41,711 nt of DNA from NCBI GenBank assembly GCA_028877145.1, contig JAGWOX010000005.1, forward strand, positions 1-41,711. Direction: 5' to 3'. How positions within the stretch are numbered: position 1 is the first letter of the stretch; every line of letters starts with the position of its first letter. Below are positions 6,663-10,961 of the stretch, in pieces. The notes under the pieces were generated by a model. It did not search any database and was not told the origin of the DNA. It was given only the letters and a program-made list of their open reading frames with translations. This stretch comes from Acidobacteriota bacterium (GTDB lineage Bacteria > Acidobacteriota > Terriglobia > Acidiferrales > UBA7541). Position numbers and translations under genes: made by a program.

Positions 6663-7100
6663 ATGAGAAAAAGGCGCAAGGGGCGGACGGACACCCTAAC
6701 CCGGCGCGAGCGCAGTGAACGGATGGCGCTCATTCGAAGCAGGGACACGAAGCCCGAATTGCTTGTACGCCGAATCGCCAAGAGTTGCGGCTACAAATTC
6801 AGGTTGAACGTCGCCAGCCTCCCCGGGAAGCCAGACCTGGTCTTTCTGCGGCACAGAAAGGTCATCTTCGTGCATGGTTGTTTCTGGCATCGTCATCCCG
6901 GGTGCGCCCTGGCTCGACTTCCGAAGTCGAAGCTTGAGTTCTGGCTCCCCAAACTGACGGGCAATCGCCGGCGCGACCTTCGCGACCTACGCAGGCTGCG
7001 CAGAGCGGGCTGGCACGTGAAGGTGATCTGGGAATGCCAAACGAAAGATACGCGCTGTCTCGAGAGCTCGATCAGAAAATTTCTGAGGCCCAGCCGATGA
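6663..7100 (+). CDS. vsr: Very short patch repair (Vsr) mismatch endonuclease
   Basis: Vsr nicks DNA next to the T of a T:G mismatch arising by deamination of 5-methylcytosine, so it limits C-to-T mutation at sites methylated by its partner methylase. The 145-residue product has the family length. Visible family residues are Glu32 (TKPELLVR), Asp58 in LPGKPDLVF, His71 in FVHGCFWHRH, the Cys73/Cys81 region, and the C-terminal WHVKVIWEC motif. GAGG lies immediately before the ATG; a second in-frame ATG at 6723 (MALIRSRDTKPE) would still keep the conserved core. The gene overlaps the methylase by four bases (ATGA at 7097-7100), so the two are probably translationally coupled. Function is certain by family; the precise mismatch context should follow the partner methylase and is inferred. 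Confidence 0.95.
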   Translation: MRKRRKGRTDTLTRRERSERMALIRSRDTKPELLVRRIAKSCGYKFRLNVASLPGKPDLVFLRHRKVIFVHGCFWHRHPGCALARLPKSKLEFWLPKLTGNRRRDLRDLRRLRRAGWHVKVIWECQTKDTRCLESSIRKFLRPSR

Positions 7101-8284
7101 GGAGCCTCGAACTATTCACTGGGGCGGGGGGACTCGCCCTCGGCGTGGCACAAGCAGGATTCTCCCATCTCGCTGTCGTTGAAAGGGATGAAGACGCCTG
7201 CGCCACTCTATTTGAGAACAGCCGCCGAGGAGTTGAGGGGACTGGGCATTGGCCGATACACCAGCAGGACATCCAAGAATTTGACTATAGCGCGATACCA
7301 GAGGGCATAGAGTTAATCGCCGCTGGCGTCCCCTGCCAGCCATTCTCCATCGGCGGCAAACACAAAGGTCACCTAGATGAGAGAAACCTATTCCCACAGA
7401 CCATCGAGGTCATCCGGCGCATCAAGCCGCTCGCGGTCCTAATCGAAAACGTCCGAGGGCTGCTCCGCCCTTCATTCTCTAAATATTTTGGCTACATCGA
7501 ACTGATGCTCACTTACCCTGAAATATGCCGCAAGGGGGCCGAGCCATGGATTGATCACCTCGGGAGACTCGAGCGGTATCATACGAGGGGAAAGCGAGAC
7601 GGCCTCTATTATCGCGTAGTCCACCGCCCCCTCAATGCGGCCGATTATGGAGTGCCGCAAAGGAGGGAGCGCCTCTTCATGGTCGCGCTGCGGTCAGACC
7701 TCGGCATTGAGTGGTCCTTTCCCCCGCCGACTCACTCGCCGGATTCGCTCCTCTGGGAACAGTACTGCTCACAGGAATACTGGCAAAGGCACAGTGTTCC
7801 CAGGAAGCGTGTCCCCCCGGCGCGCCCAGACGTGGTCGAGCGTATCCAGAAGCTGAAAGATCGCCTAATCCCACCCGCGCTCGCTCCCTGGAAGACCGTG
7901 CGTGACGCGATCTCGGATCTCCCGATGGCCCGGAAGCGCCGCTCGGTTGACGAGCCCGGTCTAACACACTTCTCGATCAACGGAGCTCGAAGCTACGTGG
8001 GCCACACGGGCAGCCCACTCGACGAACCCGCTAAGACCCTAAAGGCAGGGGTGCACGGTGTACCCGGCGGCGAAAATATGTTAGCCTTGCCCGGCGGCGG
8101 CGTTAGGTACTTCACGATACGCGAGAGCGCCCGCCTCCAAACGTTTCCCGATTCGTTTGTGTTTCCAAATTCGTGGACGGAGAGCATGCGGCAGATTGGC
8201 AACGCGGTCCCGGTCGAACTGGCCGCGATAATCGCGAAGCGCCTAAAAGAGACCCTATCGCGAAAGGCGTCCGTCCCATCATGA
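7097..8284 (+). CDS. C5-cytosine DNA methyltransferase
   Basis: Transfers a methyl group from SAM to cytosine C5 and protects the host from the adjacent endonuclease. Ordered motifs are clear: motif I LFTGAGGLALG (6-16), motif IV GVPCQPFS with catalytic Cys80, motif VI ENV (117-119), motif VIII QRRER (188-192), and the C-terminal GNAVPVE motif X. The target recognition domain lies between about 200 and 330. The start is taken as the ATG at 7097 because it overlaps the vsr stop in ATGA and places motif I five residues from the N-terminus, as in relatives; an upstream in-frame ATG at 7034 lies inside vsr. The endonuclease gene begins four bases after the stop. Because the endonuclease resembles Eco29kI, CCGCGG is the predicted target, but the recognition sequence cannot be read directly. 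Confidence 0.95.
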   Translation: MRSLELFTGAGGLALGVAQAGFSHLAVVERDEDACATLFENSRRGVEGTGHWPIHQQDIQEFDYSAIPEGIELIAAGVPCQPFSIGGKHKGHLDERNLFPQTIEVIRRIKPLAVLIENVRGLLRPSFSKYFGYIELMLTYPEICRKGAEPWIDHLGRLERYHTRGKRDGLYYRVVHRPLNAADYGVPQRRERLFMVALRSDLGIEWSFPPPTHSPDSLLWEQYCSQEYWQRHSVPRKRVPPARPDVVERIQKLKDRLIPPALAPWKTVRDAISDLPMARKRRSVDEPGLTHFSINGARSYVGHTGSPLDEPAKTLKAGVHGVPGGENMLALPGGGVRYFTIRESARLQTFPDSFVFPNSWTESMRQIGNAVPVELAAIIAKRLKETLSRKASVPS

Positions 8285-8288
8285 GCTA

Positions 8289-8948
8289 ATGGCAGATGCT
8301 CCCTTCAACCCGCTCGACAAACTAAACTTGGCTGAGAGCCTCGCAGAAGCGATGCTGAAACAGCCGGTCACTTCGCTTCCCCCTGAGAACAGGTTCGACG
8401 GCGCGGGAATATATGCAATTTACTACCAGGGTGACTTCGAGGCCTACAGGCGTATCGCGGAAAAGAACACCGGAGACAATCCGAGTGCGCCAATATACGT
8501 GGGGAAGGCAGTGCCGCCCGGGGCAAGAAAAGGCGGTTTCGGACTCGGTGCGGAACCTCGAAACGCTCTCTTCAAAAGGCTGAAGGAGCACGCTCGGTCC
8601 ATACAGGAAACTGGTAATCTGCAGCCTGAGGACTTCCGCTGTCGGTACTTAGTGTGTGACGACATTTGGATACCGCTAGGCGAAGCCCTGCTAATAGAGA
8701 AGTTCAAGCCGGTCTGGAACGTCCTCATAGAAGGTTTTGGAATTCACACACCAGGTGGTGGCAGGAAAAAGCAGGTTAGGTCGAAATGGGACACCCTCCA
8801 CCCCGGGCGCAAACTGGCAAGGGACCTCCCTACCAACCCAATGAGCAGGAGCAAAATACTCTCTCTACTCTCGGACTTCCTCGCGGGCAAGAAAGTTCCC
8901 ACTCTATCGGCAAGACAAGCTGTTCTGGAGCAGGAGGGGGAACAGTAG
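8289..8948 (+). CDS. Eco29kI-like GIY-YIG type II restriction endonuclease
   Basis: The 219-residue protein has the GIY-YIG nuclease layout of the Eco29kI family, whose prototype cuts CCGCGG. Visible catalytic-type residues are Tyr42 in GAGIYAIYY, Tyr70 in PIYVGKA, Arg97 and His101 in KRLKEHARSI, Glu132 in IPLGEALLI, and Asn144 in PVWN. Their spacing parallels that known for Eco29kI (Tyr49, Tyr76, Arg104, His108, Glu142, Asn154). The C-terminal part keeps the family-like GFGIHTPGGGR and WDTLHPGR segments. It follows the methylase by four bases and closes the operon. Toxicity without the methylase is expected. Some codons (ATA, CTA) are more frequent than in neighbouring housekeeping genes, consistent with transfer. 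Confidence 0.9.
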   Translation: MADAPFNPLDKLNLAESLAEAMLKQPVTSLPPENRFDGAGIYAIYYQGDFEAYRRIAEKNTGDNPSAPIYVGKAVPPGARKGGFGLGAEPRNALFKRLKEHARSIQETGNLQPEDFRCRYLVCDDIWIPLGEALLIEKFKPVWNVLIEGFGIHTPGGGRKKQVRSKWDTLHPGRKLARDLPTNPMSRSKILSLLSDFLAGKKVPTLSARQAVLEQEGEQ

Positions 8949-8983: not shown

Positions 8984-9012
8984 TACAGCCCACCCCTACT
9001 CAGCGGGCTGTA
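8984..9012. terminator. Stem-loop at convergent ends of the two island operons
   Basis: An 8-bp perfect stem (TACAGCCC/GGGCTGTA) with a 13-base loop spans the last codons of the DUF262 gene, 36 bases past the endonuclease stop. It could terminate transcription from both sides. No T-run follows, so the call is positional. Confidence 0.3.
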
Positions 9013-10120
9013 ATATCGCCGCGTCGTACTTAACGCCGAAATGCTTACCCAAGTACCGCAGGAGGATGCCGAGCCGAATGCGGATCGCGTAGGCATCGTT
9101 GGGCGTCTGGGAATGCTTGTCGAACTCAAGAAATTGCGCATCGACCTGTTTGCTAGACTCGCCCATGGCCTCGACTAGCTCGCGGTTCTTCTCCCGGTCC
9201 CGCTCGAATTTCGAAAGCATCTCCCGACGGACATGGCCCACCCGCTTTAATCTGACCTGCCTGAACAGGTGGAAATAGACCGTAATCATACCGACCTGCC
9301 GCAGCAAGCTATCCGAGATTCCGAAAACAGAATTCATCAACACGAGAGTTTCCTCGACGCTGCCCACAAGCGCGGAGACTGCTGATGCGGAGGCCCTTTT
9401 ATCCCCCTCCTTTCGCCACCTTCGGAAGTCTTTTACGAATCCGTCCAAATACGCCTTCTTTGTGTTAGGGATCGCGTTGGAAAACTCGATGTAGAGAAAT
9501 TTTGCAGCAAGATCGCGATGTCTGTACCGAGAGTCAGGAAAAGGGACATGCTTGGAAAAGAATGTATGCGCCGAAACCCGGCGAATCGCTGCGGGCATCG
9601 GACCCCCCAGGGCGCCTCTCTTTTCCGGAGCGTTAAGCGGTACAGCCTCGTTAAGCCGGGAGAACATGTCCTCTATCAATTCGATGTCATTTGTTCTGAT
9701 CGTGACAATGTCAATAGGGGTCGCATCGAACCTCGCCTTGATGTGAGGATACCTCTTGGCCAGAGTTGGGTAGTCTAGGCCCCCTGCCTTCACGCTATCA
9801 TCCCGGAGATACCTAAAATCCTCCGCCAGAGGTAGGTTCCCATCAATGAACTCCCAAATCGTTTCCAGCCTCTGTCTCCCATCGACGATCGCGTAGCGGT
9901 ACCTCTTCCCATCCTCTTGATTGTATGGAACAAACTCATGGAAATAGAGCTTCGGCACGTCGAAGCCGTTCAGAAGAGAGTCAATAAGCAGCTGCCGTTT
10001 CTCCCTAGTCCAGATGCCACTTATCCGCTGATACTCCGGGTTGAGCTTGATCTCCCCGCGCTCAGAGTAGACGACCAGCAGGGAGCTCTGCGGGTACTTC
10101 CCAAGGCTGAATTCATCCAT
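8996..10120 (-). CDS. DUF262 (ParB/Srx-like) family protein
   Basis: This 374-residue protein begins with a DUF262 domain: NPEYQR (27-32), TREKRQLLIDSLLNGFDVPKLYF (38-60, shown in part), then the DGRQR motif (80-84; DGQQR in most relatives) and FSRLNEAVPLNAPEKR. In GmrS and SspE, related domains bind or hydrolyse nucleotides and drive restriction of modified or unmodified phage DNA. Here no DUF1524 HNH nuclease follows; the C-terminal 200 residues are helical and basic with no recognised nuclease motif. The ATG at 10120 overlaps the FRG gene by eight bases and has AGGAGG inside the 3' end of that gene, so coupled translation is very likely. Probable role is defence, with the FRG protein as partner. 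Domain call is firm; activity is inferred. Confidence 0.85.
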   Translation of the reverse strand: MDEFSLGKYPQSSLLVVYSERGEIKLNPEYQRISGIWTREKRQLLIDSLLNGFDVPKLYFHEFVPYNQEDGKRYRYAIVDGRQRLETIWEFIDGNLPLAEDFRYLRDDSVKAGGLDYPTLAKRYPHIKARFDATPIDIVTIRTNDIELIEDMFSRLNEAVPLNAPEKRGALGGPMPAAIRRVSAHTFFSKHVPFPDSRYRHRDLAAKFLYIEFSNAIPNTKKAYLDGFVKDFRRWRKEGDKRASASAVSALVGSVEETLVLMNSVFGISDSLLRQVGMITVYFHLFRQVRLKRVGHVRREMLSKFERDREKNRELVEAMGESSKQVDAQFLEFDKHSQTPNDAYAIRIRLGILLRYLGKHFGVKYDAAILQPAE

Positions 10121-10907
10121 CGTAGCGCCTCCTCGCTAGGCTCGCCGCGTTGTCGAGCTCCGGAAACACGGTCAGCGAGTCGACCCCCAGTCCTTCTAGT
10201 TGCCGGCGTATTCGTGCCTTCGAGGAAGAGGGAATTATATACCGACCGACATGAGCACCACGGCCAATGCTCTCAATGGGAGTTTGGTCCCTGTGCGTCA
10301 CGGTAAAAACGCTGTACTGGGCCTGCATCCGCTTCGAGTGACGGATCGCAATTCCAGCAGCGGGGAGCAGTCGGCTAGTGAGCTCTGAAGCGAGCTTCGC
10401 TGGCAAATAGTTCTGAAGGTACTCATCGTCATCCTCAAAGATGGGCAGCCCCCGTGCATCGGCCTGCTTAATGCCCGCCTCCTCGTTCAGTCTCCTCGGC
10501 AACAACACCCACAGGGCCCCGTCCTTTTCGTCGTTCCTAGTCACTCCATCCAGCGAATGAACGGCGAAGTAGAGTCCGATCAGAGGGCTCTCGGTCCAAT
10601 CGAGGAGCCTGGTAGGCACCTTGTGATGGCGGGCCAAGAACAGCCACTCCCACTGGGATTGCGGCCGCTGATCCAAGAACTGCACGGCGTTCTGTTTGAA
10701 GACGTTGAGGAGGCCCCGCTCATGCTCCAACCTAAATGGTGGCCTGGCAAGAGTCGGGATAAGCTTGTACCTCACGCTGGTGAGCCCCCTATACCAGACC
10801 GGGCCTTTCCTAGCTCGCTCCCGCGGAGAATCGAGCAGGCTAAGGAGGTCCGTGACGCCCCTAATTCGTTGTTCGTCGAAGAGCATAGTTAGCGCGACAG
10901 CGTCCAA
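10113..10907 (-). CDS. FRG-domain protein
   Basis: The product of about 264 residues carries the FRG domain named after its conserved Phe/Tyr-Arg-Gly: VWYRG at 37-41, then EWLFLARHHKVPTRLLDW (87-104) and SPLIGLYFAV, the usual H..PTRLLDWT signature. The domain is widespread in mobile and defence-associated genes but has no settled biochemical function that I can state. The start could be TTG at 10907 or ATG at 10886; neither has a clear ribosome site, and a stop lies 16 codons upstream of the TTG. A promoter at 10932-10961 points into the gene. It is the first gene of a two-gene operon with DUF262, whose ribosome site is embedded in its 3' end. The arrangement suggests that both act as one system. 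Confidence 0.85.
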   Translation of the reverse strand: MDAVALTMLFDEQRIRGVTDLLSLLDSPRERARKGPVWYRGLTSVRYKLIPTLARPPFRLEHERGLLNVFKQNAVQFLDQRPQSQWEWLFLARHHKVPTRLLDWTESPLIGLYFAVHSLDGVTRNDEKDGALWVLLPRRLNEEAGIKQADARGLPIFEDDDEYLQNYLPAKLASELTSRLLPAAGIAIRHSKRMQAQYSVFTVTHRDQTPIESIGRGAHVGRYIIPSSSKARIRRQLEGLGVDSLTVFPELDNAASLARRRYDG

Positions 10908-10931
10908 GCGGGACCGAAAGACTAGAACGGG

Positions 10932-10961
10932 ATTGTAACAAAGCGAAAAAGTGACTTACAA
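10932..10961 (-). promoter_or_regulatory. Promoter of FRG-DUF262 operon
   Basis: On the minus strand, TTGTAA (complement of 10956-10961), an 18-base spacer, then TACAAT (complement of 10932-10937). Both boxes match the sigma70 consensus at four or more positions and transcription would begin near 10925, giving a leader of about 18 bases to the TTG or 39 to the ATG. Confidence 0.55.

Follow-up and report, generated by a model that had tools for sequence, protein, structure and literature searches.

The FRG-domain gene and the DUF262 gene that lie side by side in the window (the whole analysed stretch of 41,711 nt) belong to one module, a conclusion supported by their invariant pairing, gene order, coupling and co-inheritance, and in this respect the sequence-only reading, which had already taken them for one system, proved right. 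Judging from sequence families and structure models, we estimate with a probability of about 0.6 that FRG–DUF262 is a two-protein anti-phage module, in which DUF262 would serve as the sensor and a protein of ADP-ribosyltransferase (ART) fold as the effector of an abortive response, and of which a subset would be coupled to C5 methylation. Since the two genes travel jointly over about 13 bacterial phyla and some prophages and often stand beside cytosine-methylating restriction-modification (RM) genes, the pair is probably an unnamed anti-phage system. What is new here is the tie of the pair to C5-cytosine methyltransferases.

The pair and the adjoining RM operon are arranged in the window as follows, with open reading frames called mechanically.

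6663..7100, plus strand: Vsr T:G mismatch endonuclease (Pfam Vsr 2e-26, NCBIfam TIGR00632 4e-37)
7034..8284, plus strand: C5-cytosine DNA methyltransferase (Pfam DNA_methylase 4e-57), a recurrent neighbour of FRG–DUF262 pairs
8289..8948, plus strand: Eco29kI-type GIY-YIG restriction endonuclease (Pfam RE_Eco29kI E=2e-62), tail to tail with the pair
8996..10120, minus strand: DUF262 (GmrSD_N) gene, 374 aa (Pfam GmrSD_N E=8e-15), predicted NTP-dependent sensor without HNH domain
10113..10120, minus strand: overlap of the FRG and DUF262 genes, 8 bp, from the mechanical ORF calls
10128..10133, minus strand: AGGAGG ribosome-binding site of DUF262, within the FRG gene and 7 nt 5' of the DUF262 ATG
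10113..10907, minus strand: FRG-domain gene, 264 aa, TTG start (Pfam FRG E=1e-22), predicted ADP-ribosyltransferase-fold effector
10932..10961, minus strand: promoter-like TTGTAA-18-TACAAT, 5' of FRG, not above chance

Both the overlap of eight bases and the second ribosome site inside the first gene had been described from the letters alone, and both are found as described. The shared promoter proposed at the same time is present as a sequence, but a scan with a consensus of this type gave 1 match against 1.2 expected per shuffled region, so it does not rise above chance. The commonest FRG/DUF262 junction is a 4-bp overlap (51 of about 90 measured), and the 8-bp overlap is therefore particular to the window copy. 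The start of FRG is uncertain, because the relatives are split: their first residue aligns with window residue 1 (TTG) in 32 of 81 and with residue 8 (ATG) in 22 of 81. The tail-to-tail RM operon was also recognised correctly in the earlier reading; it runs Vsr–C5 methyltransferase–Eco29kI-type endonuclease on the plus strand and ends 47 bp from the DUF262 gene, and no terminator was found in this 47-bp gap. The methyltransferase and its cognate restriction endonuclease (REase) lie together at 7034-8948, which makes a type II RM system (Eco29kI), and the FRG–DUF262 pair is outside the defining gene set of that system. The G+C content is 55.8% in the pair and 58.1% in the RM genes, compared with 62-63% in the surroundings, a difference that one would expect of genes that were acquired. 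The host genome contains a single FRG gene, the window copy.

An alignment made of DUF262 proteins only served as the query against 84,980 species genomes, and the best 80 loci were kept. In 79 of them, the gene immediately 5' of DUF262 and co-directional with it turned out to be FRG, and in the 80th (L058) an IS66 copy leaves only the FRG tail, so that pairing, including the destroyed one, reaches 80 of 80; these loci are the nearest to a query derived from the pair, and the figure thus describes this DUF262 group, not DUF262 as a whole. In L058 (L058:1-364) the IS66 transposase fragment has replaced nearly all of FRG and the DUF262 frame is intact, which means that Franzmannia pantelleriensis tolerates DUF262 by itself. 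Other searches that started from DUF262 only gave the same arrangement: FRG stands just upstream in the closest relative within the phylum (L003, from 297 genomes), in a viral contig (L014) and in a Hymenobacter plasmid (L015). For DUF262 relatives outside the pair group, including ten further matches in the phylum, no adjoining FRG was found. The pairwise distance matrices of the FRG and DUF262 proteins correlate with r=0.91, while the best of 2000 permutations reached 0.21.

The loci range from Pseudomonadota to Armatimonadota, with one record labelled Candidatus ainarchaeum, and pairs were also found on virus-like or prophage-like contigs, amid terminase, portal, repressor and integrase genes. 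When viral contigs were scanned with a single FRG protein no relative appeared, and the alignment query did find relatives. Within the phylum, a full-length DUF262 of the window type occurs in 2 of the 297 genomes; the pair is not common. A DUF262 gene annotated as 'DefenseFinder protein' was also seen in Alicyclobacillus phage MMB025 (L018:3953-5023), where it follows an 812-aa gene without Pfam match.

To describe the surroundings of the pairs, neighbouring genes were clustered without any prior family, and the C5-cytosine methyltransferase ranked first, followed by Vsr and an Eco29kI-like endonuclease. Profile matches near the pairs (92 loci) number 27 for C5 methyltransferase, 16 for Vsr and 16 for Eco29kI-like enzymes. 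A whole-genome search of 49 pair genomes gave about 74 distinct C5 methyltransferase genes, 19 of which lie within 10 kb of a pair against 0.31 expected, an enrichment of about 60-fold; the loci counted span roughly 20 kb, up to 10 kb per side, and some are ended by contig ends. The binomial probability is 1e-28, although the true figure is weaker because the genomes are related. The enrichment is selective for C5 over type I methyltransferases: HsdM is found in only 1 of 49 pair loci although 39 of the 49 pair genomes match the HsdM family. Besides, in 13 of the 15 genomes with an Eco29kI-type enzyme this enzyme sits in the pair locus, whereas 6 of the 297 phylum genomes have an enzyme of this type at all.

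The neighbouring REase varies between loci, from Eco29kI to EcoRII (L079), NgoFVII (L084) and NotI (L077), and the constant partner is therefore the C5 methyltransferase. We also considered that the pair might be tied solely to Eco29kI RM, and rejected this, because the REases differ and other Eco29kI loci lack the pair. Some loci contain further proteins of possible restriction function. For instance, a protein of 178-179 aa without Pfam or PADLOC match adjoins C5 methyltransferase/Vsr genes in L102:1617-2153 and L021:15296-15835 and may be an unrecognised restriction enzyme; a 366-aa protein without Pfam match lies between C5 methyltransferase and Vsr in L064:7611-8711, with weak PADLOC matches to TmtA and PDC-S36, and is possibly a restriction enzyme too. 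Around the pair in both L039 and L094, there are two different GIY-YIG genes of Eco29kI-like type, no more than a few kb apart.

In some loci the genes are joined closely. L024, L029 and L031 each have one co-directional run Vsr–methyltransferase–Eco29kI–FRG–DUF262, and two prophage-like contigs carry methyltransferase–FRG–DUF262–Vsr with gaps of 2, 2 and 94 bp (L111) and methyltransferase–FRG–DUF262 (L113), with no REase recognised in either by Pfam and PADLOC. On the DUF262 tree, the C5 methyltransferase neighbour state needs at least 10 changes; a supported clade of 11 is always accompanied by a C5 methyltransferase, and a clade of 36 is mostly without it. About two thirds of the pairs have no C5 methyltransferase in reach, which, together with the large clade mostly without it, indicates that methylation sensing is not general.

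The same methyltransferase family accompanies DUF262 in other contexts. C5 methyltransferase and Vsr were both found within 10 kb in 2 of 10 DUF262 loci lacking FRG, and the idea that the methyltransferase linkage is unique to FRG pairs is weakened by these loci. In L174:9544-12430, a DUF262 gene, a HEPN (MAE_28990) gene and a C5 methyltransferase gene stand in a row, one junction being a 2-bp gap and the other a 4-bp overlap, and Vsr is nearby. In L017:4965-6867, from Sinorhizobium plasmids, a ThsA-related SIR2 gene begins 1 bp downstream of DUF262. The loci with other effectors and those without FRG point to DUF262, rather than FRG, as the companion of 5-methylcytosine.

To examine general defence islands, we took 36 loci that lack C5 RM and compared their four nearest genes, by PADLOC, with random regions of pair genomes. 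A few real defence matches (MTase_II, HEC-01A, SoFic, PDC-S26) were obtained, only slightly above the control, whose matches were mainly apparent housekeeping cross-hits, and there was no strong difference between control and pair loci. The argument that the pair sits beside defence genes, made earlier from the single location, thus holds for C5-cytosine RM, which is strongly enriched, and does not extend further, as about two thirds of pairs lack it and have little other defence nearby. Likewise, the genome search for neighbouring pairs that had been suggested gave complete pairing among the best relatives, with frequent defence neighbours only as the C5 RM subset.

These results bear on the strongest of the alternatives, in which the module is real and its proximity to C5 RM reflects passive sharing of defence islands. 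This is compatible with the anti-phage module minus its methylation part, and we hold it to be quite possible, if somewhat doubtful. Many pairs stand alone, the orientation relative to the methyltransferase varies, and in Acidobacteriota the other Eco29kI loci examined are without the pair, all of which would fit passive sharing. It fits less well with an enrichment of this size and selectivity, with the co-directional runs of L024, L029, L031 and L111, and with a neighbour state that changes repeatedly on the tree.

For the DUF262 protein, the best PADLOC match is Menshen NsnA (1e-27), followed by PD-T4-2_A (9e-10), and judged by such profiles the window protein resembles Menshen NsnA more than GmrSD. 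The structure model (pLDDT 94.5) matches residues 1-424 of BrxU with Z 8.4 but an rmsd of 16 A, and SspE with Z 8.2 and 3.8 A over 146 residues; ParB CTPases and DndI are matched as well. The motif [ILV][IV]DG[KR]QR, which includes the DG[KR]QR pocket, is kept in DUF262 relatives. Neither the DUF262 nor the FRG protein has a DUF1524/HNH match in Pfam at E<0.1. DUF262 is hence predicted from the model to have the BrxU/SspE/ParB NTPase fold minus the HNH domain.

The FRG domain scores 81.2 bits against a Pfam cut-off of 25, and PADLOC PDC-S15 matches the window protein with 8e-47, while PDC-S15 models match 82 of 82 FRG members of the pairs. In the AF2 model (82 sequences, pLDDT 93), the leading solved-structure matches are ADP-ribosyltransferases and Tpt1-type enzymes, such as Rhs TreTu (3.4 A over 105 residues) and cholera A1 (3.2 A over 119); the best Z is 5.9 and all lie below 8, which gives a fold assignment and no proof of activity. 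On this basis, FRG is predicted to adopt the ADP-ribosyltransferase fold. R40 of the WYRG motif falls at the R-S-E-class arginine, as read from the aligned range starts, and fits the first Arg of the ART triad (R-S-E or H-Y-E), the second and third residues of which were not placed on the model. Q197, invariant in pairs, is near the expected position of the ART glutamate; since the catalytic glutamate itself was not placed, the activity could be lost or different. R40, G41, R55, H94, D103, W104 and F114 are invariant in both paired and unpaired FRGs. PDB sequence searches with FRG and with DUF262 gave nothing useful, and a BFVD fold search was uninformative. The FRG protein had earlier been described as having no known activity, and this statement needs to be qualified in view of the literature, the fold model and PDC-S15: Frg is described as an ADP-ribosyltransferase-superfamily domain and potential antiviral effector, possibly a NADase (PMC9503650, which credits the proposal to Burroughs & Aravind 2020, J Bacteriol).

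By analogy with their families, DUF262 is predicted to bind NTP as well as DNA or some other phage cue, and FRG to use NAD+; we further infer the defence role, the complex of the two proteins and the sensing of modification. DUF262, made of a ParB/Srx-fold domain and a BrxU/SspE/DndI-like helical part without a nuclease domain, would be an NTP-binding sensor, whose recognition of the cue would release or activate FRG. The activated FRG would then consume NAD+ or ADP-ribosylate a target, and the infected cell would be halted, so that where DUF262 systems usually have an HNH nuclease, this one would have an NAD-dependent effector in trans. It would in this way belong with PD-T4-2 and Menshen among the systems that combine a sensor with exchangeable effectors. 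In the methyltransferase-linked subset, which includes the window, the module probably reads the DNA methylation state or acts after restriction fails; the mark may set a threshold, or the module may back up a defeated endonuclease. Pairs that stand alone would respond to a cue other than C5 methylation.

A bolder form is methylation-gated immunity, in which the C5 methyltransferase marks self and DUF262 reads the mark and fires an FRG, HEPN or SIR2 effector that replaces the REase. We regard it as tentative and rather unlikely; the pure forms of this class would be L111 and L113 (methyltransferase–FRG–DUF262) and L174 (DUF262–HEPN–methyltransferase). If it were true, it would be RM logic with a cell-stopping output.

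ART folds are common among toxins, and the pair might accordingly be a toxin–antitoxin or addiction system, in which DUF262 restrains an FRG toxin and the pair mainly stabilises the mobile element or RM locus that carries it, with any phage effect secondary. Two overlapping genes with FRG first in a fixed order, and the location of pairs on a plasmid as well as on prophage-like contigs, would agree with this. We nevertheless consider it unlikely, because DUF262 keeps an NTPase-type pocket and resembles sensors or restriction subunits more than antitoxins, it pairs with other effectors too (SIR2 in L017, HEPN in L174), and the preference for C5 methyltransferase neighbours is left unexplained. 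Restriction of a type IV-like kind, with DUF262 as a ParB/Srx-fold nuclease that cuts or nicks modified DNA and FRG as a mere regulator, is suggested by the nearest solved structures (the restriction proteins BrxU, SspE and DndI) and by a family named after a restriction enzyme, but is improbable, as the DUF1524/HNH nuclease of those enzymes is absent, the model match stops at BrxU residue 424 and FRG has invariant residues of the kind that an enzyme should have.

The anti-phage module, if confirmed, would give a role to DUF262 without nuclease and a function to FRG proteins. It also suggests that abortive infection, besides DNA cutting, can be gated by DNA-methylation marks, and the two genes offer a definite target for phage assays.

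Compared with known systems, the exact pair still does not correspond to a characterised one, as had been noted: no published name for it was found in the open-access PMC literature, where there was also no paper linking the FRG domain with DUF262, PD-T4-2 with FRG, or Menshen with NsnA. PADLOC PDC-S15 and the Frg-clade ADP-ribosyltransferases (PMC9503650) share the FRG domain with the pair, but PDC-S15 is a single-gene defence candidate that does not include the constant DUF262 partner. The SIR2 and DUF262 genes of L017 are alike in joining DUF262 with the gene of an NAD-using effector, and differ in that SIR2 replaces FRG and the gene order is reversed. The absence of DUF1524 was rightly observed in the sequence-only reading and is not unusual as had been thought, since PD-T4-2, Menshen and Dazbog all have DUF262 without DUF1524 (PMC10952713). 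PD-T4-2 resembles the pair in combining such a DUF262 with a separate effector (PMC10952713), and 79 of the 82 DUF262 proteins from pairs are hit by its PD-T4-2_A model; however, the partner there is a HEPN protein and here it is FRG. L174 is a methyltransferase-linked relative of PD-T4-2. Menshen NsnA gives the best PADLOC match, and its model hits every one of the 82 DUF262 proteins from pairs (E as low as 1e-36), whereas the Menshen partner is an OLD-type nuclease, in whose place FRG stands here, and no other Menshen model of PADLOC matches the FRG partner gene. GmrSD, BrxU, SspE and DndI have in common with the pair the DUF262 fold and the DGxQR pocket, but the DUF1524/HNH domain is missing here and the effector, predicted to be of ART fold, would act in trans, so that the small NTPase sensor known alongside nucleases from GmrSD, SspE and BrxU would here be tied to an NAD-dependent effector fold.
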